From: Turneriella sp.
Lineage (GTDB): Bacteria > Spirochaetota > Leptospiria > Turneriellales > Turneriellaceae
Assembly (NCBI GenBank): GCA_019186965.1
Contig: JABARV010000014.1
Span: 1-64,000 of the forward strand
Direction of reading: 5' to 3'
Length of the DNA: 64,000 nucleotides
Of this stretch, positions 18,983 through 27,932 are shown piece by piece; positions within the stretch are counted from its first letter, which is position 1; each line of letters opens with the position of its first letter. Both the position numbers and the translations under genes were made by a program. Under the pieces are notes generated by a model. It was not told where the DNA came from and did no database searches. It worked only from the letters and a program-made list of their open reading frames with translations.

Positions 18983-19030
18983 AGACACTTCAAGTTTTAC
19001 GCTTCCACGCTGTTAAGGTGCGACAAAACT

Positions 19031-19252
19031 CTACAATTCTTTTACCTCAATGTCGGTTTCGCGCAAGAATAAAATTCCGCGTTCGATATCTTGTGGGGTA
19101 CCTTCGATTTCAAGGACGACGGTTCCGTTTCGGTTAGGCCCCAGGTTTGCTTCAATAATGTTTGTTTGTAAATTATATTTGGTTACCATCCGAAACACAA
19201 AAGGCTCTTTGACTCGATCGGCAGGCACCTCTAAGTGTAACCTTTTGAGCAT
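19031..19252 (-). CDS. Stand-alone NIL domain protein
   Basis: This 73-residue cytosolic protein has a ferredoxin-like fold of the NIL family: LKRLHLEVPADRVKEPFVFRM, NIIEANLGPNRNGTVVLEIEG and GILFLRETDIEVKEL. NIL domains usually sit at the C-terminus of MetN, where they bind methionine, or next to ferredoxins. Here it is encoded alone, without an adjacent ABC transporter. It is the last chromosomal-type gene before the restriction island and lies on the same strand as it. Confidence 0.8.
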   Translation of the reverse strand: MLKRLHLEVPADRVKEPFVFRMVTKYNLQTNIIEANLGPNRNGTVVLEIEGTPQDIERGILFLRETDIEVKEL

Positions 19253-19464
19253 GCTGCATTGCGGCCTATAGCGAAGCGATTGTCAAGGATAATTGTAAGA
19301 CGCTAAAGGGGGTTGTAAGAGCCTGTGCTGCAACTTGCTGAAGCAAATTTTTTGGAAAAAAGTCTATCCTCGCTTATCTATATTATGTGAGTTCTGAAAA
19401 GAGGTTTTTTTCAAAAGAAAGTTTACTGTATAGCTATTTACCTTAAATAGGTACAGAATCTCTG
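19253..19464. other. Intergenic left flank of the restriction island
   Basis: These 212 nt separate the NIL gene from the HEPN-like gene. Base composition drops towards AT from about 19340 on. I see no tRNA, integrase remnant or direct repeat matching the right flank (26731-26993), so the insertion point cannot be fixed. A weak TA-rich stretch near 19376-19386 resembles a -10 box, but no gene follows it. Confidence 0.4.
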
Positions 19465-20187
19465 TTAATTGTTTACTCTAATTTTAGCGTAATCTTTGAT
19501 TAGGCTATTAAAAGCTATTTCAAAGCTATCCATAAGTGACAGGCTCGATTGTGCAACGGTGGCTCTAAGTTCTTGATACTTTTTAACGGCTTCACCCCAA
19601 ATAGCGTTTTTGTCACCTGCTTTTGCCCAACCTGCTTGTTTTATTAAAAAGTTAATAGCAACAGTATCAACAATTGTAAAAAACATGTTTGACCTTTCTG
19701 TTGAATTACCTTGATATATATTTACTTCTTCTAATTCTGCAAGTTCAGACCAAGTTTCAGTAATGACATCTCTGTCAAAATGAAACATTATTTTATCTCG
19801 AATATGGAAAATTAAATTTCTATAAATTGTGCCTTTGGAGTACCTATTAAGTTCCGTTTCGAGACTTTGAATAGCCTTATCAGGTACATGATATTTTCTA
19901 TAATTATTTGCTATTTGCTTATCTTCAACATTCTTTATTATTTCAGCCAAGTATGATGCTCGTGTAAAAAATATTTCAGTTGCAAACTTTTTATGTTCTA
20001 GTGATTCGTTATTTTTACCCTCTAAGATATATTTACCTTCTGCCATAATCGTTAATCTTAAATGATTTATTAAGCGAGCTGTTTGAATTGCTAATATGAT
20101 TTTTTCATTAACATCATCACCTGAACAAAAAGATTTTTTAAAAGGGTTCTCATTAAACACTAGATTTATCTTAGGTTCATTATTCAC
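19465..20187 (-). CDS. HEPN-like hypothetical protein of the restriction operon
   Basis: This 240-residue, mostly helical protein has no recognised full-length family. Residues 123-128 read RNLIFH, fitting the RNxxxH (Rx4-6H) signature of HEPN ribonucleases found in abortive infection and toxin systems. A second R-x5-H follows at R130-H136. It starts with GTG 1 nt after the TGA of the specificity protein, so it is the last gene of the restriction operon. A role as a defence effector or accessory protein is inferred from motif and position. The alternative is an unrelated helical protein with a chance motif. Confidence 0.5.
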   Translation of the reverse strand: MNNEPKINLVFNENPFKKSFCSGDDVNEKIILAIQTARLINHLRLTIMAEGKYILEGKNNESLEHKKFATEIFFTRASYLAEIIKNVEDKQIANNYRKYHVPDKAIQSLETELNRYSKGTIYRNLIFHIRDKIMFHFDRDVITETWSELAELEEVNIYQGNSTERSNMFFTIVDTVAINFLIKQAGWAKAGDKNAIWGEAVKKYQELRATVAQSSLSLMDSFEIAFNSLIKDYAKIRVNN

Positions 20188-20188
20188 A

Positions 20189-21679
20189 TCACTTCACCAC
20201 CAACTTTGGCAGGCTGTTTACAATTTTTACAGTTTCAACACTCACGGTAATGACTCGTTGAATGTGCTCTAAAATATATTTGGGGTTGTTTTCGGTTTCA
20301 GTAGCCCACAGGTTAGCATCGTTGACGATACCTGATGCTTTATCGGTTGAAACACAGTAGCGTTCAACCACCCAGTCAAGGGCTGACTTGCCGTTCACAA
20401 TATATTCTTGTGATTCGAGGGGTATATCGGTGATGGTGATGTATGGGTTATATTTAATGGTAGTTTTATCAAGCCCTGCATGGCCGCTTTTGCCTGGTAT
20501 TTTACCATAGCTGAGTTTGGTAACGTGGTAATGCTTGTCTTCAACATTCTTGGGTAGCTCAATTTTGACTGGGTATTTTTTAGCGGATTCATAACCCACA
20601 TGCAATTTACCCAGTTCTTTACCTGCCTTTACAAAATGCCAAAAATCGGCGGCGGCTTTAACTAACGGTATTCGCGGCAACTCTTTCGATAGGTTGTCGG
20701 CATACTTACTGCGGTAGTCGGGTGAATGTAATAAGCAGTAGATGTAATAGAAGATGTCCTGCTTTGATATTGCCTCACCCCCTCCGCTACGCTCCCCCTC
20801 CTCTCCATGCTGGAGAGGTGGCCGGGGGGTGAGGTAATACTCCTGAAAGTGTTTCACCCCATCATCGGTTATGGCATCACGGCGGTGGTATTTGCCATAG
20901 TTTGGTTTGAGTTGCACATCATCGCTTTCAAATAAACTAGTTTTGGTGTTTGATTTAGATTCAGGTAATTCATATAGATATAGCGGAAAGCATTGACCAT
21001 TTGCAATTAACTGTATGTCAGGAATAACGGAAGTCATTATTGTTGAAAACTCTTTTGGTGTACCTACTCCTGTTACACAAATAACTAAATTCTCGACCGA
21101 GCTATCAGGGAAGATGTTGGGCATTTGCCCAACACGGTGATTTAGAAAACTACTGTAATATAAAGACTCCTTTGTAAATGGTCGATAGAGTCCATTTGCA
21201 ATATTTTTTTTATCAAACGGTTCGTAATAATTACGTGATAAATTATCAATTAGGCTACTTGACCAACTAATTTTTGTCGAATTAGTATCAATATAATCTT
21301 TGATATTTTTTATATTACTTTTCCCTTTTATAGTCTTTAACTGGGTTTGATAAAACATGAGCATATTCTTAATATTTTTCGTAAGTTCTTTTATTGAAAA
21401 GTTATATACCCAAGCGTCTCGTGCTGTTTCTAAGCCTCTTGAATAATTCTCAAACAGCACCTTAGTGGCTTTATCTTTCTTGTTACCAATTTCAATAAAG
21501 TCATAATAGCTTTCATCGCGTTGGTTCACCCAATCATGGTATTTATCAGGCTCGATGATTTGCCAGCCATTGGCTTTGCTAATGCCATCGACACTACCAA
21601 AGTCAGCGATTTTCTTTAGTTTTTGTTCGCGAGTTAAGTAATCACCAATGTCGTGAAAGTAAATTTTTGCTTTGCTCAT
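20189..21679 (-). CDS. Type ISP-like specificity (target recognition) protein
   Basis: This 496-residue protein corresponds to the C-terminal part of type ISP restriction-modification polypeptides. The start (AKIYFHDIGDYLTREQKL) continues where the methyltransferase protein ends, and later segments match the ISP domain: GLYRPFTKESLYY, QDIFYYIYCLLHSPDYR and ELPRIPLV. This part selects the DNA sequence to be methylated or cut. Residues about 282-303 (LTPRPPLQHGEEGER) are a translated palindromic element inserted just before the conserved IFYYIY segment. ATG lies 1 nt after the DUF1016 stop, so translation is coupled. AT-rich codons differ from the chromosome around it. Confidence 0.8.
   Translation of the reverse strand: MSKAKIYFHDIGDYLTREQKLKKIADFGSVDGISKANGWQIIEPDKYHDWVNQRDESYYDFIEIGNKKDKATKVLFENYSRGLETARDAWVYNFSIKELTKNIKNMLMFYQTQLKTIKGKSNIKNIKDYIDTNSTKISWSSSLIDNLSRNYYEPFDKKNIANGLYRPFTKESLYYSSFLNHRVGQMPNIFPDSSVENLVICVTGVGTPKEFSTIMTSVIPDIQLIANGQCFPLYLYELPESKSNTKTSLFESDDVQLKPNYGKYHRRDAITDDGVKHFQEYYLTPRPPLQHGEEGERSGGGEAISKQDIFYYIYCLLHSPDYRSKYADNLSKELPRIPLVKAAADFWHFVKAGKELGKLHVGYESAKKYPVKIELPKNVEDKHYHVTKLSYGKIPGKSGHAGLDKTTIKYNPYITITDIPLESQEYIVNGKSALDWVVERYCVSTDKASGIVNDANLWATETENNPKYILEHIQRVITVSVETVKIVNSLPKLVVK
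20773..20834. mobile_element. Short palindromic element inserted in frame (no nuclease)
   Basis: This 62-nt GC-rich element lies in an AT-rich gene. It is bounded by CCTCACCCCC (20773-20782) and GGGGGTGAGG (20825-20834), with an inner hairpin CCTCTCCA/TGGAGAGG (20800-20818). The same termini bound the DUF559 element at 23289-23737. It looks like a non-autonomous, MITE- or REP-like derivative. The host frame stays open and gains about 20 residues. Confidence 0.75.
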
Positions 21680-21680
21680 A

Positions 21681-22730
21681 TTAGTTCTGCTTTAATAGTT
21701 TTTTAAATTCAGCTTTGCTTGGTAAAACTGTTTTGTATTTGCTAGCGAATATCTGCTGGTTGTCTTTGGGTAATGTAATTTCAACCAGCATGTCGTTTTT
21801 ATCACGACAAAGTACAATCCCTATGGTTGGGTTTTCGTCTTTAAGTTTAACGAATCGGTCATAGTAGTTAACATACATTTGAATTTGGCCTAAATCTTGG
21901 TGCTTGAGCTCACCTATCTTTAAGTCAATTAGTACAAAACAACGCAGTATTCTATTATAGAAAACCAAATCAACGTAAAAATGTTTTTCGTCGATGGTTA
22001 TACGTTTTTGCCTATCTACAAAAGTAAAACCTTTGCCGAGTTCTAATAAAAACTGCTCTAATTTATCAGTAAGTTTAGTTTCAAGTTCTTTTTCAGTATA
22101 GACAGTTTGTTCAGGTAAACCTATAAATTCAAGAATGTAAGGGTCTTTTATTATATCTTGAGGTTTTTGAATTACATGGCCTTTTTGTGAGAGTTCTTTA
22201 ATTTTCTTTTTATCTCGGCTCAAAGTCAGTCTTTGGTATAAGCCTGAATCAAATTGACGTTGCAACTCACGTACACTCCAACTATTGGTAGTTGCTTCAA
22301 TTTCATAAAATTGTCGCTCGTTAAGGTCGTCGATACGCATTAGCTTTAAGTAATGCGACCAGCTTAGGTTAAACTCAGTCGGTTGTGCTTGTTGAATTAG
22401 TGAGTCTGGGTAACTCTCCCCTTTTGTCAATTTCGTCAACACTGTTGACGAAATCTTTGGTGAAGAATATGCCCTAAAGAAAAACCTCATTCTGTCAAGG
22501 TTCTCTACTGAAAACCCCTTGCCAAACTGTTTGGTCAACTGTTTCGATAATTCTTTCAATACTTCTTTGCCATACTCAGCCCTTTCGTTACCTTGTTGCT
22601 CATCTTCCACTATAATTCGGCCAATTTCAAAATAGGTATGCACCATGGTGCTGTTGACACTGCGAACGACTTGTGTGCGAGCTTGTTCTAAAAGTTCACT
22701 GATACGTTCATAGAGGGTGCTTTTGTTCAT
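21681..22730 (-). CDS. DUF1016 (YhcG-like) PD-(D/E)XK nuclease
   Basis: This 349-residue protein has the two YhcG/DUF1016 parts. The N-terminal helical domain shows HTYFEIGRIIVEDEQQG, LSKQLTKQFGKGFSVENLDRM and LSWSHYLKLMRIDD. The C-terminal nuclease domain has IDEKHFYVDLVFYNR then CFVLIDLKIGEL, with the D-x-K of the PD-(D/E)XK core. Genes of this family are often embedded in type I restriction operons, and their exact role is unclear. I chose the ATG at 22730, giving TAA-G-ATG coupling to the upstream gene, over the GTG at 22739. Its position exactly between the two halves of an ISP enzyme is notable. Confidence 0.85.
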   Translation of the reverse strand: MNKSTLYERISELLEQARTQVVRSVNSTMVHTYFEIGRIIVEDEQQGNERAEYGKEVLKELSKQLTKQFGKGFSVENLDRMRFFFRAYSSPKISSTVLTKLTKGESYPDSLIQQAQPTEFNLSWSHYLKLMRIDDLNERQFYEIEATTNSWSVRELQRQFDSGLYQRLTLSRDKKKIKELSQKGHVIQKPQDIIKDPYILEFIGLPEQTVYTEKELETKLTDKLEQFLLELGKGFTFVDRQKRITIDEKHFYVDLVFYNRILRCFVLIDLKIGELKHQDLGQIQMYVNYYDRFVKLKDENPTIGIVLCRDKNDMLVEITLPKDNQQIFASKYKTVLPSKAEFKKLLKQN

Positions 22731-22731
22731 C

Positions 22732-25700
22732 TTATACACTCTTCTTCTTCACAAACAAGCTAATCGCTATGGGTGCACGGCTACCGCTACCAAATATTTT
22801 ACCACCTTCTTTGCGAGATGTTTCACCAGCAGTTCTTTGGTTGCCTCTTAAGTGAAATATATAAATGCTGGTAAATTCTTCTTCTAAACATTTACGCAAG
22901 CCATCCATCGCATTGCCATCAATCCAGCCAGCATTGGTGACCATGCCCAATATACCGCTGTCACCAATTTTATCGCTGGCCCAACGAATGGCACGAATGT
23001 ATGAATCGTATAGGGCATTTTTATTGGTGCCAGTTGAATATTTTGCATAGGTGTTTGCAATCCGACTGTCTAAACCTTCATATTTTACATTTTGGTTGTT
23101 GTCATTCGCACTTCCTTGGCCACTTGAGTAAGGTGGGTTACACATAATCACTTTTATATCTAATTCTTTTTGGCGATTACGGCGGTCACTGTTGTCAGCT
23201 AAGTACTTGCTGATTTCATCATCTTTTTCATACATCTGAAAAGTATCCGTCAGCAAAATACCTTTGAAGGGTGAATAGGTTGCACCCCCCTCACCCCCTG
23301 ACCCCCTCTCAAATTTAGAAAGGGGGGTTGCTTTGGCAATCTGTTGTAAAACTTGTAAAGTTTTGTTTAAAACTTCATCATTAGTAAAACGAATAATGTT
23401 TATTTTATACTGTTTAATAATTTCTGTTCGTAACTCATCGTACTTTTGTTGATCCGGATTTTTATGATGATTACCGTCAATTTCAATACCGAGCTTAGCT
23501 TCGGCACAATAAAAATCGAGAATAAAATTTGCCTTTAGCGGATGTTGTCGCCGAAATTTTAGATTATTGAATTGCCGATTTCGTAAAAACTGCCATAATA
23601 GCTCTTCTGCATTGGTTTGATTTTTTCTCAGTTCACGAGCATGTTTTAATAATGTGGTCGCTATATCCACTTCAACTGTACGAATGTTTTGTGACTGCTC
23701 CCCCTCTCCAGAATGGAGAGGGGGCTGGGGGGTGAGGATTAAACTATGGTATGTCGATTCGATGTTAATGGCAGCTATGTAATAGGCGAGCAAAACAATT
23801 TCATTGGCATGAATTTCATTTTCATACTTATAGGTGAGCTTGTCTTGGCTAATCAATCCACTTTGCAAAAGCCTTGTGATGAACGTACCAGTGCCGGTAA
23901 AGGGGTCTAAAATATGAACACCTTTAGAGCCAAGTGTTTGGTTAAATTCTTTTTGTAAAAGGTCATTCACACTGTGAATGATAAAGTCAACCACCTCAAC
24001 TGGTGTATAAACAATACCCAGCCTTTCTGTCATTTTAGGGAAGGCACCCCTAAAAAACTTATCATAGAGCTCTAAAATTATTTTTTGTTTACCCTCGGCA
24101 TTGTCGATGCCTTCAGCTCTGAGCTTTACACTGGCATAAAACTTATCAAGCGACATTGACTCTTTGCTTAAATTGTGTGATTGCAATATCTTTAAAATTT
24201 TATCCATCGCTTTCGACACTGGGTTTTCATTAGCAAAACTCACTTTGCTAAACAACGCATCAAAAACAGGCTTTGTGATGAGGTGCTGCGCCAACATCTC
24301 TATCACTTCTTGATCAGTGATAGCATCGTTTAAGTCATCACGCAGTTCATCGACAAACTCTTGAAATGCTTTTATTTCTTTGGTTTTGTTTTGGTTTTCT
24401 AAAATAGCTTTGATTTGGTCTATATGGGTGTTGGCTATTTTAGCAATGTCACCTGCCCATTCTTCCCAGTGACGACGGTTGCCTACCTTTTTAACGATTT
24501 TAGCATAAATCGCTCGCTCTAATTCACCGATTTGAAATTCCAATACCTGTTGGGTGTCTTCCTTGGGTTTCTTAGGCAAAGCGCCTATAGTCTGCCCACC
24601 GAACGCACTATTCACTGTTGATTTATCTGTTGAGTGACTTTTTGCAGTGGGTACATGGTCAGTAACGGCAATGACTTCCATTCGTGCCAAGTTGGGGCCT
24701 ACTAACTCCATCTTGTTCACCATGGCATCAAAACGGTCATCGTGAGAACGCAACGCTTGTAATACCTGCCATACAATTCGATAGCTTTTATTGTTGTCTA
24801 ATACTTCATGCGGCTCTTTGCCAGCAGGAATGACGATGGGTAAAATGACATAGCCTCGTTTTTTACTAGGGGCTTTTCGCATAACCCTGCCTACGGATTG
24901 CACTACATCCACTTGGCTTTGCCTGGGTGATAAAAACAAAACTGCATCAAGGGCTGGTACATCCACACCTTCTGACAAACAACGAACATTGCTTAAAATT
25001 CTACAAGTGTTGGGGTCGGTTTTCTCTTTAAGCCAAGCGAGTTTGGCTTCTTTTTCAGTGGCGTTCATGCTACCATCAATATGTTCGGCTTGGCAGGTAA
25101 GGTTAGCTAATTCAGGCTCACTTTCAAGATAGGTGTTGACCACCTCTTCAAACATTTTTGCAATTAATTTTGAGGATGTAACATCTTGAGCTTTTGAAAA
25201 CTCTATTCGCTGACAAAAAGCTACCGCCTTTGTCATAGGGGCATCATCGTCACCTACCTCAGCACCGTGTTTTGATAATGCTTTAAAGCAACCAATGATT
25301 TTGGCCGCATCATCAACTCGTAATTGATTATCTTCATCAGCTAATAACTTTTGAAGGCGACGGTTTACGTGGGCTTCATCTACTGCTAACACAATGACCT
25401 TGTAATCTACCAGTAAATCCTGGGTTACCGCCTGTGAAAATGTGATTGTGTGAAACTCTTTACCATAAAGCTTTTCATCATCCATGGAACAAAGCTCTAT
25501 AGTACCTTCTTCTTCGGCTTTTGCTTTAGCCACATCACCAAAAATTCTTGGGGTAGCTGTCATGTATAAACGCTTCTTACCCTTGATTATCTTTTGGTCA
25601 TGCACTTTGATAAAATGGCTTTCGTCTTCACCTTCAAACTTAGCACCAGTGGTTCTGTGGGCTTCATCACAGATAATTAAATCAAATTCAGGTAACTTAA

Positions 25701-26730
25701 AATTCTTTTGAGCATCCGCTAACACTTGAATGCTGTGGTAGGTTGAAAACACAACTGTCATCTTTTTAGGGTTGTGTAATGAATTTACTCGACGAGCTAA
25801 TACTTTGCTTTCTGTAGTAGCAGGGTAACTTAATTCATGTGAAAATGTTTCAACCTTTTCATCACCCTTATTTCTCTTTTTGCCAATTTCTGAATCGGAA
25901 CAAACAGCAAAACTTTGAATGGGTATGTCACTTTCTTGTGTCCATTCAGTCAGTGACTGCGACAACAAGGCAAGACTTGGCACCAAAAATAAAACCAAAC
26001 CATCCGCACCTGCTACCTTTTCAGCAATTTTCAAACTGGTATAGGTTTTACCAGTACCACAAGCCATGATAAGTTTTCCACGGTCTTCACTTTTAAAGCC
26101 TTCTAAGACATCAGCAACTGCTTTTATTTGGTGTGGCCTAAGTGTTTTCTTTTTCTTTAGAACGATTTCTTTTTTGGTGGGGCTATACTTCGACCAATCG
26201 ATTAAACTTTTTTCAAGTTCATATAAATCTATTTTGCTAACCGGTATTGCTTGCCCCATGAGAGCATTTTCAGCTGGCTCTGACCAATTATTTGTGGTGG
26301 TCACAATATATCTTGCAGTAAAAGGCTTTTTACCAGAGGCTGTGAAGAAGCTATCAATATCTTCTTTTCGTATCACATGATATGGCTTGTAAAACTTACA
26401 TTGAATCGCATGAAACTCTTCACCACCAGAAGCACCGGCATTCACTTGCGCTACTAAATCAATGCCAATATCCAGTGCAGTAAAACCATATTGCTCACCA
26501 TAGACCTTTGCCCAGTCAGAGAACATGTAAACCTTTGAATATAAATTGCTAAATTTAGGTTCGTTCTCAAAGTAACGCACCATCAACTCTTCAAAGTAAG
26601 TTCCCTTTTCACGTTCTGTTTTTGCAGCATCTTGGAACGATGCTAAGAGTTTCTGTAAGTCACTCTTCTCTCTCACAAAAGTTTCTGTAATATTAGTACG
26701 ACTATTTTGGGTATTTGCTGGCTTTGGCAT
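22732..26730 (-). CDS. Type ISP-like restriction enzyme: Mrr nuclease, helicase and N6-adenine methyltransferase
   Basis: This 1332-residue polypeptide is built as follows. An Mrr-type nuclease occupies about 40-120 (DIGIDLVAQ, AIQCKFY). An SF2 translocase occupies about 190-650, with Walker A ACGTGKT (K228), DEAH at 355-358, TATPRIF and QSVGRVMRK. A coupler follows. The gamma-type methyltransferase starts near 910, with motif I LDPFTGTGTF (D942) and motif IV NPPY (1198-1201). The protein ends at SRAPIAISLFVKKKSV, where single-chain ISP enzymes continue into the recognition domain; here that domain is a separate gene. Residues about 998-1149 are an in-frame DUF559 insertion between motifs I and IV. 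It would translocate on DNA, methylate adenine and cut unmodified phage DNA. Confidence 0.88.
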   Translation of the reverse strand: MPKPANTQNSRTNITETFVREKSDLQKLLASFQDAAKTEREKGTYFEELMVRYFENEPKFSNLYSKVYMFSDWAKVYGEQYGFTALDIGIDLVAQVNAGASGGEEFHAIQCKFYKPYHVIRKEDIDSFFTASGKKPFTARYIVTTTNNWSEPAENALMGQAIPVSKIDLYELEKSLIDWSKYSPTKKEIVLKKKKTLRPHQIKAVADVLEGFKSEDRGKLIMACGTGKTYTSLKIAEKVAGADGLVLFLVPSLALLSQSLTEWTQESDIPIQSFAVCSDSEIGKKRNKGDEKVETFSHELSYPATTESKVLARRVNSLHNPKKMTVVFSTYHSIQVLADAQKNFKLPEFDLIICDEAHRTTGAKFEGEDESHFIKVHDQKIIKGKKRLYMTATPRIFGDVAKAKAEEEGTIELCSMDDEKLYGKEFHTITFSQAVTQDLLVDYKVIVLAVDEAHVNRRLQKLLADEDNQLRVDDAAKIIGCFKALSKHGAEVGDDDAPMTKAVAFCQRIEFSKAQDVTSSKLIAKMFEEVVNTYLESEPELANLTCQAEHIDGSMNATEKEAKLAWLKEKTDPNTCRILSNVRCLSEGVDVPALDAVLFLSPRQSQVDVVQSVGRVMRKAPSKKRGYVILPIVIPAGKEPHEVLDNNKSYRIVWQVLQALRSHDDRFDAMVNKMELVGPNLARMEVIAVTDHVPTAKSHSTDKSTVNSAFGGQTIGALPKKPKEDTQQVLEFQIGELERAIYAKIVKKVGNRRHWEEWAGDIAKIANTHIDQIKAILENQNKTKEIKAFQEFVDELRDDLNDAITDQEVIEMLAQHLITKPVFDALFSKVSFANENPVSKAMDKILKILQSHNLSKESMSLDKFYASVKLRAEGIDNAEGKQKIILELYDKFFRGAFPKMTERLGIVYTPVEVVDFIIHSVNDLLQKEFNQTLGSKGVHILDPFTGTGTFITRLLQSGLISQDKLTYKYENEIHANEIVLLAYYIAAINIESTYHSLILTPQPPLHSGEGEQSQNIRTVEVDIATTLLKHARELRKNQTNAEELLWQFLRNRQFNNLKFRRQHPLKANFILDFYCAEAKLGIEIDGNHHKNPDQQKYDELRTEIIKQYKINIIRFTNDEVLNKTLQVLQQIAKATPLSKFERGSGGEGGATYSPFKGILLTDTFQMYEKDDEISKYLADNSDRRNRQKELDIKVIMCNPPYSSGQGSANDNNQNVKYEGLDSRIANTYAKYSTGTNKNALYDSYIRAIRWASDKIGDSGILGMVTNAGWIDGNAMDGLRKCLEEEFTSIYIFHLRGNQRTAGETSRKEGGKIFGSGSRAPIAISLFVKKKSV
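23289..23737 (-). mobile_element. DUF559 nuclease element inserted in frame in the methyltransferase
   Basis: This element of about 450 nt starts with CCTCACCCCC and ends with GGGGGTGAGG. GC-rich palindromes sit near both ends (an arm pair at 23697-23721, CCCCCTCTCCA with its complement). The middle encodes a DUF559 domain, a Vsr-like PD-(D/E)XK fold, on the minus strand: EELLWQFLRNRQFNNLKFRRQ, then NFILDFYC and GIEIDGNHH. The host frame reads straight through, adding about 150 residues between methyltransferase motifs I and IV. It shares termini with the short element at 20773. Confidence 0.75.
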
Positions 26731-26993
26731 AGTTATTTTATTTGGGCTTTTCGGTTTGCATGGTCATCTACTGACCACTCCACTTTTCAGGCTTTATTTC
26801 TAATGTCATAAGTAAAGCACAATTGGGGAGCGATGTTTCGGCAGGTGATTGAAAACAGAGAAAAACAAGTGATATTTCATTTCAAATGAAATATATTGTA
26901 AACATGACTACTGCAACAGACCCTAACATCAGGTAGTATCCCGTTGAAGAGCAAGAAATTTTTGTACGCGATTCGCTTAAAAAGTTAAAACCA
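26731..26993. other. Intergenic right flank and promoter region of the restriction operon
   Basis: These 263 nt lie between the glycosyltransferase and the restriction operon, both on the minus strand. The space must contain the operon promoter. It holds one perfect palindrome (26872-26894) and otherwise AT-rich sequence. No clear -35/-10 pair, tRNA or gene was identified. Confidence 0.45.
26872..26894. promoter_or_regulatory. Perfect 23-bp palindrome upstream of the restriction operon
   Basis: Arms ATATTTCATTT and AAATGAAATAT match perfectly around one central base, 142 nt upstream of the first start codon of the restriction operon. It is a plausible operator for a dimeric regulator or a recombination core. 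No regulator gene is encoded nearby, so the role is inferred. Confidence 0.4.
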
Positions 26994-27932
26994 TTATATA
27001 ATTTTGAAATTCTTATATTCCCCCAAGCGGTATCCTGTTATTTTTTCAACAACGCTCGATATTTTTTCTTTAAGGGTAACCTCAGAACGGCTAATATCGA
27101 AATCGAAGTGCCAATTTTTTTTATGGATACGCTCTCGCATTACCAAGGGATGCGTTCCTTTAAAGTGGGCAAGCGAATCAATGTTTGAATAATCAAACGT
27201 AACCGTTGATGGAATATTTTTTTTCATCCACGCATCGTCGTGCCAATACTTATGGAACGATTGTTGTTTACGCATTTGTGCATCCGGCGGCTTAACCCAG
27301 CCGTAATGGTAAACACAGGCACCTATTTCTTTTACAGATAATTTTTTATTATCATCTTTACGAAACCCTTGTGCGTCTTTATAGGAATATATTTTTTGTT
27401 CAGGCTTTAAATACCAACGCGGAGGGCGTACAATACGAACCTCTCGACGGTACCAGCGCCGCGAAGTTCCAATATAATCGTACGAACCATAAAAATGGCG
27501 GTACTTGAAAAGTAAACCATCGACGCGGATATCGTCGCGATATTTCTCTGCTGCTTTAAGGATTTTTTCATAGTCTTCTTCGTGGAGGACTTCATCCCCT
27601 TGCAGGTAAAAGGCCCAGTCGGGCTCGGTGTACTCCTGTGCAATTTTATCGATTTTTTTTACACTGGTTTGTGTACCGATAGCATCGTACGCCTTTTGCG
27701 TTTCTTCGGCGAGAACATGCCCTCCTTCTCGTTTAGTATCGTCCCATATTGTTTTCAGAATATGTATCTTCTTTTTATCAATTTTTTGTACGTACTCCAA
27801 CGTCTTGTCGTCTGATTTTCCAACGGCGACAACTATTCCGTCGACAAGCGGCAAAAGTGAACGCAATGATTCAGCGATGGGGTAATCGTACTTAATTGCG
27901 TTACGGATAAAAGAAAAGCCAACTATTTTCAT
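26994..27932 (-). CDS. Glycosyltransferase, family 2-like
   Basis: This 312-residue cytosolic protein starts with the GT-A pattern (KIVGFSFIRNAIKYDYPIAESLRSLLPLVDGIVVAVGKSDDKT shortened: FIRNA, then VVAVGKSDD). The metal/nucleotide motif is close to WAFYLQGDEVLHEED (about residues 127-141). Such enzymes add a sugar to a polysaccharide or glycolipid; the acceptor is unknown. No membrane anchor is visible. It lies 38 nt downstream of the GH32 gene, so the two may form an operon. Confidence 0.75.
   Translation of the reverse strand: MKIVGFSFIRNAIKYDYPIAESLRSLLPLVDGIVVAVGKSDDKTLEYVQKIDKKKIHILKTIWDDTKREGGHVLAEETQKAYDAIGTQTSVKKIDKIAQEYTEPDWAFYLQGDEVLHEEDYEKILKAAEKYRDDIRVDGLLFKYRHFYGSYDYIGTSRRWYRREVRIVRPPRWYLKPEQKIYSYKDAQGFRKDDNKKLSVKEIGACVYHYGWVKPPDAQMRKQQSFHKYWHDDAWMKKNIPSTVTFDYSNIDSLAHFKGTHPLVMRERIHKKNWHFDFDISRSEVTLKEKISSVVEKITGYRLGEYKNFKII

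Follow-up and report, generated by a model that had tools for sequence, protein, structure and literature searches.

In-frame palindromic elements with and without a DUF559 nuclease domain in a type ISP operon of Turneriella

Introduction

Palindromes that lie in frame in unrelated conserved genes and are translated with them are known from Rickettsia (the RPEs) and Wolbachia; experiments in support of a transposase that moves small bacterial repeats were lacking (PMC2229807, PMC10969869). Some REP sequences are also located inside genes, repair genes included (PMC3733652). Here we analyse a 64,000-nt stretch of a Turneriella sp. contig (JABARV010000014.1, forward strand positions 1 to 64,000; hereafter the window) in which a 62-nt palindrome and a longer element encoding a DUF559 domain are both read in frame within the genes for a type ISP enzyme. 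The 62-nt insert may be a reduced relative of mobile elements of a kind that has received little description.

Results

A 62-nt palindrome is read in frame in the type ISP specificity gene

The short element and the two genes that encode the type ISP enzyme are as follows.

20773..20834, minus strand: nuclease-free palindromic element, 62 nt (sequence, fold, absence in most ISP relatives, alignment with genus copies)
20189..21679, minus strand: host gene, type ISP C-terminal specificity (target recognition) domain, 496 aa (Type_ISP_C PF18135, E=2e-102; LlaGI, 5ffj, E=5e-73; LlaBIII, 4xqk)
22732..26730, minus strand: nuclease-helicase-methyltransferase part of the type ISP enzyme, host of the DUF559 copy (Mrr_cat_2, ResIII, ISP_coupler, DUF559; PADLOC PDLC03597)

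The closest solved relative of the ORF at 20189-21679 is LlaGI. The type ISP enzyme is a single polypeptide in relatives; here PADLOC profile PDLC03597 was split over 22732-26730 and 20189-21679, and a YhcG/DUF1016 PDDEXK nuclease gene (21681-22739, minus strand) separates the two halves. A 240-aa ORF that lies downstream in this operon (19465-20187, minus strand) gave neither a Pfam nor a PADLOC match. No ISP relatives were found among viral contigs.

Read on the minus strand, positions 20773-20834 form a 62-nt imperfect palindrome (CCTCACCCCCCGGCCACCTCTCCAGCATGGAGAGGAGGGGGAGCGTAGCGGAGGGGGTGAGG) with outer arms CCTCACCCCC and GGGGGTGAGG and an inner hairpin, CCTCTCC...GGAGAGG. The fold of this strand was -38.1 kcal/mol compared to -26.7 ± 3.2 kcal/mol for dinucleotide shuffles (z -3.6), and none of 200 such shuffles reached this value. 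Within the 496-aa ORF the element is read in frame and encodes most of a 21-aa peptide, LTPRPPLQHGEEGERSGGGEA (the full length, which continues beyond the first 15 aa), placed between 'HFQEYY' and 'ISKQDIFYY' of the ISP protein. A scan of 19000-27000 yielded no Rfam match. The first-pass annotation had described the segment as an in-frame palindrome in the recognition gene, and sequence, fold and ORF context all bear this out.

Most ISP relatives lack the insert and have about 3-5 residues at this position, e.g. 'HFQAAYSGAKIMKEDIFYY' or 'HFQEAYPKETITKEDIFYY', which excludes the reading that the segment is part of the normal ISP domain. The ISP homologue of another genome of the genus (G004; 64% identical in this part) carries RDGSPLRGSGGAVS at exactly the same place. 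The corresponding DNA contains a 17-nt exact match (GAGGGGGTCAGGGGGTG) to an arm of the DUF559 element of the window, while the longest match was 11 nt in 2000 shuffles and 9 nt in 166 other windows of that locus. We conclude from this arm remnant that element sequence has occupied the site in a further species as well. Within the genus, another type ISP protein (L062, from G006) contains a 49-nt in-frame copy at about residues 596-612, at a different point of the loop region, ~35 residues from the insertion point in the window.

Short copies are dispersed in the genome and the genus

The exact 10-nt ends of the element occurred 15 times in the genome compared to 2 occurrences of a reversed-pattern control; several of the 15 are true family members and the rest are chance occurrences. 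Across 41 related genomes, a both-ended pattern, CCTCACCC-N30-60-GGGTGAGG, was found at 17 places, of which 16 belong to this genus, whereas the control pattern was found at 1 place. The genome search that had been proposed as a check therefore recovered further copies in the genome and in the genus, excluding the case that none exist. Genus copies are 48-70 nt long, and those listed have CCTCAC/GTGAGG ends. By a hand count on the alignment, the window copy is ~89% identical to a copy in G005 (L084). Neither target-site duplications, direct repeats nor a common target motif were found in the flanks of the both-ended genus copies.

At least 5 of the 16 genus copies (14 were examined) are open, in frame and sense inside Pfam-recognised proteins. 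The hosts are the ISP_C protein of the window, a second ISP_C protein and an acyl-CoA dehydrogenase of G006, and UvrC and an HTH_8 regulator of G005. We left out of this count one copy from the window's own genome (C3, L003), which looked in frame but was followed by an ORF without a match to the host family, as well as L082, L088 and L089, which had no host match on both sides; L089 precedes a flagellin domain. A rearranged copy is present in the inter-domain linker of MetH in the window's own genome. At the insertion points in MetH and UvrC, the genus orthologues have other, variable linkers.

These positions bear on a preference for sites or frames that the first-pass annotation had suggested. 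Insertion in tolerant loops or linkers is supported by the data. The preferred LTP-x-PPL frame had to be rejected, as the left arm is read as LTP (window, L083), PHP (L062, L081) and TSPP (L076) in the in-frame genus copies, i.e. in all three frames, and as SSPPAPL in the related DUF559 copy of L092, which occupies the ISP site described below. The two window copies share their orientation, but two copies are too few to show a preference.

The same operon contains a DUF559-bearing member of the family

The second element in the window has the following parts.

23289..23737, minus strand: DUF559-bearing copy, 449 nt, in frame (sequence, Pfam, alignment of arms)
23697..23737, minus strand: left palindromic arm CCTCACCCCCCAGCCCCCTCTCCATTCTGGAGAGGGGGAGC (alignment)
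23329..23649, minus strand: DUF559 (Vsr/EDxHD-like) endonuclease domain (Pfam; invariant family residues E15, D45, E56, G59 and H62 all present)
23289..23327, minus strand: right palindromic arm CCCCCCTTTCTAAATTTGAGAGGGGGTCAGGGGGTGAGG, inverted relative to the left arm (alignment)

The DUF559 copy thus has an arm of the same element at each end, the two being inverted, and the earlier assignment of both window copies to one palindromic family stands. In a Cryomorphaceae genome (L092), this ISP position is occupied by the same arrangement; its DUF559 segment is 65% identical to that of the window, and the host is 51% identical before it and 62% after it. Among the best 80 of 476 matches in the genome collection, the closest relatives of the window's DUF559 domain are mostly from Bacteroidota (69-74%), which suggests horizontal transfer. 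Other DUF559 genes of the genus (L028 and L018, G001) lie outside host genes, yet are bracketed by the same arms. L023 (G006) contains no more than a fragment of DUF559, beside a complete short copy.

The DUF559 profile found 3HRL and, weakly, the homing endonuclease I-Bth0305I (3R3P, E=0.0016). An AlphaFold model of the window's DUF559 domain (pLDDT 85) was then compared with solved structures using Foldseek, giving E=6e-8 for 3HRL and E=9e-4, TM 0.66-0.71 and prob 1.00 for the catalytic domain of I-Bth0305I. DUF559 thus shares the fold of I-Bth0305I and is predicted to be a small endonuclease. To our knowledge, neither an activity nor movement has been described for a DUF559 protein in this group. 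The DUF559 protein VsrA of Caulobacter has been proposed to act in mismatch repair (PMC12907096), and hence a nuclease function in the DUF559 group need not mean mobility.

Palindromic arms bracket DUF559 in loci of many phyla

The genome collection was scanned with a two-sequence DUF559 alignment; a nine-sequence alignment was too diverse. The sample consisted of the best 80 of 476 matches, with one genome per species, and is close to the window's own DUF559. An inverted repeat with a score of at least 16 bracketed DUF559 in 34 of the 57 loci with full flanks, compared to none of 228 displaced control positions taken from these loci. In a stricter control, in which flanks were paired between different loci, 15 of 226 pairs were bracketed because the arms are alike across phyla. 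At least 30 of the 80 loci are sense and in frame inside long ORFs, often conserved genes, that extend >100 aa on the N-terminal side of the domain and >60 aa on its C-terminal side, with arm-encoded peptides (e.g. SPLPPGEGSGVRE) at the host/DUF559 junctions. Pfam and NCBIfam identified the hosts as HsdM, HsdR, MnmE, a type III-like DNA methylase, UvrC (twice), YgiQ, RsmG, MetG, LipB and IleS. DUF559-bearing loci were also found in ISP, and the loci come from many phyla.

The association was also apparent at the level of whole genomes. Of 229 genomes in one class, 27 had both the arm pattern CCCTCACCCCNNCCCTCTCCC and a strong match to DUF559, 13 had the pattern alone, 28 had DUF559 alone and 161 had neither (Fisher p=7e-11, with the relatedness of the 229 genomes ignored). 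The G005 genome contains four complete short copies and has no DUF559 match, so that the pairing of palindrome and DUF559 is not strict. If the nuclease is needed, G005 has lost it or the nuclease acts from elsewhere.

Empty, short and full states occur at one site in MetG

Across a family of 74 genomes, the linker that precedes the tRNA-binding domain of MetG is empty, contains a short palindrome, or contains arms plus DUF559, in each case at the same site. Linkers with a short insert had a median fold of -31.6 kcal/mol compared to -20.5 kcal/mol for empty linkers (p=1.7e-6), the classes being partly defined by palindrome motifs. On a tree of the MetG core, a quick tree with some long branches, the empty state changes at least 14 times, and 11 of these changes are forced by starred branches. 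No second MetG match was found in the three genomes with DUF559 in MetG; their other matches are distant class I synthetases and other DUF559 genes. MetG-embedded DUF559 had a dN/dS of ~0.1 (dN 0.05-0.12, dS 0.70-1.17). Judged by this ratio, the domain is under purifying selection and is kept in MetG as a working protein domain. In two MetG linkers (L201 and L218) a tandem duplication covers an arm and the codons downstream of it (GEGKSTGADAxIT twice), a hint that sequence was duplicated locally or inserted repeatedly.

The two window copies had been proposed to be an autonomous/non-autonomous pair. For the family as a whole this reading is well supported, by the arms around DUF559 in many phyla and by the alternation of full and short forms at one MetG site; the long form is putatively autonomous, and the short copies of G005 occur without DUF559.

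Discussion

The simplest account of these results is a palindromic family in which some members bear the nuclease and others lack it, both kinds persisting in frame where protein loops tolerate them. The 62-nt segment is probably a reduced, nuclease-free member of such a palindrome-bounded family, one that settles in frame in loops and linkers, is translated with its host and would be spread by DUF559. Full members consist of two inverted hairpin arms around a DUF559 gene, whose product is either a domain within the interrupted host protein or the product of a stand-alone ORF. The most likely mechanism, by analogy with homing endonucleases, would be that DUF559 nicks or cuts DNA and that repair or hairpin-mediated copying then places arms at the break, whether or not the gene comes with them. 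In needed genes an insertion would survive only if it preserved the frame and lay in a tolerant loop. Short copies could arise when the DUF559 segment is lost between the arms or when arms are copied in trans, and either route might have given rise to the 62-nt copy.

A broader proposal is that of a pan-bacterial class of selfish element that homes with a Vsr-like endonuclease. It would reside permanently and unspliced in the proteins made from essential and restriction genes, and would give rise to palindromic 'solo' inserts that lack the nuclease. We put this forward tentatively, with a little more doubt than belief. If true, protein-coding palindromes would gain the mobilising enzyme that they have lacked ever since the description of the Rickettsia elements.

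Instead of depending on DUF559, the short palindromes could be ordinary MITE- or REP-like repeats moved by an unrelated transposase (e.g. RAYT-type Y1), with DUF559 as cargo captured between two copies. RAYTs have been proposed to mobilise other palindromes (PMC3733652), Y1_Tnp genes are present in the genus, including the window's genome, and the short copies of G005 exist without any DUF559 match. However, the Y1_Tnp loci of the genus (L289, L290, L294, L296 and others) are bounded by different palindromes with a GGGTTTAAACCC core and not by CCTCACCCC arms, which led us to reject the Y1 transposase as the partner, and the element has no GTAG/CGTC end tag. Chance capture also fits poorly with how often the arms bracket DUF559, in loci of many phyla, and with the purifying selection on the domain. 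We consider movement by a transposase unlikely. It is more doubtful still that the element is a structured RNA or DNA signal, such as a transcription attenuator or mRNA stabiliser, whose in-frame position is incidental. Its hairpin is very stable, and intragenic palindromes have been proposed as post-transcriptional signals in other bacteria (PMC3733652), but no Rfam family matched in 19000-27000, the element sits in the middle of a gene, and the frame stays open in the copies found in many different genes. A signal would also leave the DUF559-bearing forms unexplained.

An element might also be skipped after transcription, by ribosome bypass or splicing, so that the host protein is made without the insert, in the manner of byp elements or inteins. 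The byp elements are short, GC-rich sequences of yeast mitochondria. Insertion into essential genes (MetG, IleS, UvrC, LipB) invites a removal mechanism and the insert is flanked by hairpins, yet the copies in long ORFs are open and in frame, which removal does not require (the loci were picked partly by open frames), and the insertions lie in linkers that vary freely among relatives. Pfam detected no intein (Hint) domain in the window ORF or in the ten long DUF559 ORFs scanned. Removal is very improbable. Independent low-complexity loop growth, with the likeness to the family arising by chance, would be in line with the variability of the neighbouring ISP loop in relatives (L048). This explanation is hardly credible, being contradicted by the ~89% identity to a dispersed copy of another species and opposed by the conservation of both termini and the 17-nt arm match at the same site in G004.

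The preferred account, a palindromic family with nuclease-bearing and nuclease-free members, has several implications. The mover is unknown for the Rickettsia elements, whereas the nuclease-free copies described here have a gene-bearing counterpart with a homing-type nuclease. As this counterpart occurs in many phyla and in conserved single-copy genes, the origin of in-frame palindromes becomes testable. Some of the puzzling 'insert domains' and 'PSPLPxGEG' linkers seen in protein annotations may be debris of mobile elements, and the linker of a protein such as MetG can house an entire nuclease domain. In a literature search that was largely without subscription journals, we found no paper linking DUF559 to palindromes and none containing both arm strings.

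Like RPEs, the elements are short, palindromic, dispersed and translated in frame in unrelated protein genes. They differ in being 48-70 nt long in the genus rather than about 105-150 bp, in being G+C-rich with the sequence CCTCACCCC..CCCCTCTCC and present in many phyla, and in having full members with a gene for an endonuclease, whereas PMC2229807 and PMC10969869 name no mobilising enzyme for the RPEs. As in MITEs, a short non-autonomous form shares terminal inverted repeats with a longer gene-bearing form, but the long form here has a DUF559 endonuclease with no transposase found, and no target-site duplication was seen in the flanks of genus copies, in a comparison from which exact empty sites in near-identical strains were absent. 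The likeness to REP/RAYT systems (REPtrons) is that palindromes flank a nuclease-type gene and that many gene-free copies lie elsewhere. The GTAG/CGTC tag is absent here, the gene encodes a PD-(D/E)XK-type nuclease and not an HUH tyrosine transposase, and the element does not flank a Y1 tyrosine transposase, the Y1_Tnp genes of the genus having other palindromes. The DUF559 copy, as opposed to the 62-nt copy, shares with I-Bth0305I (3R3P) its fold, conserved acidic and histidine residues and location in conserved genes. Occupied and empty alleles at the same site (ISP in the window and L092; MetG) further recall EDxHD/Vsr-like homing endonucleases, from which the present family is distinguished by a nuclease left inside the host protein, by palindromic arms and by nuclease-free short forms; neither an intein domain (Pfam, window ORF) nor an intron (Rfam, 19000-27000) was detected.
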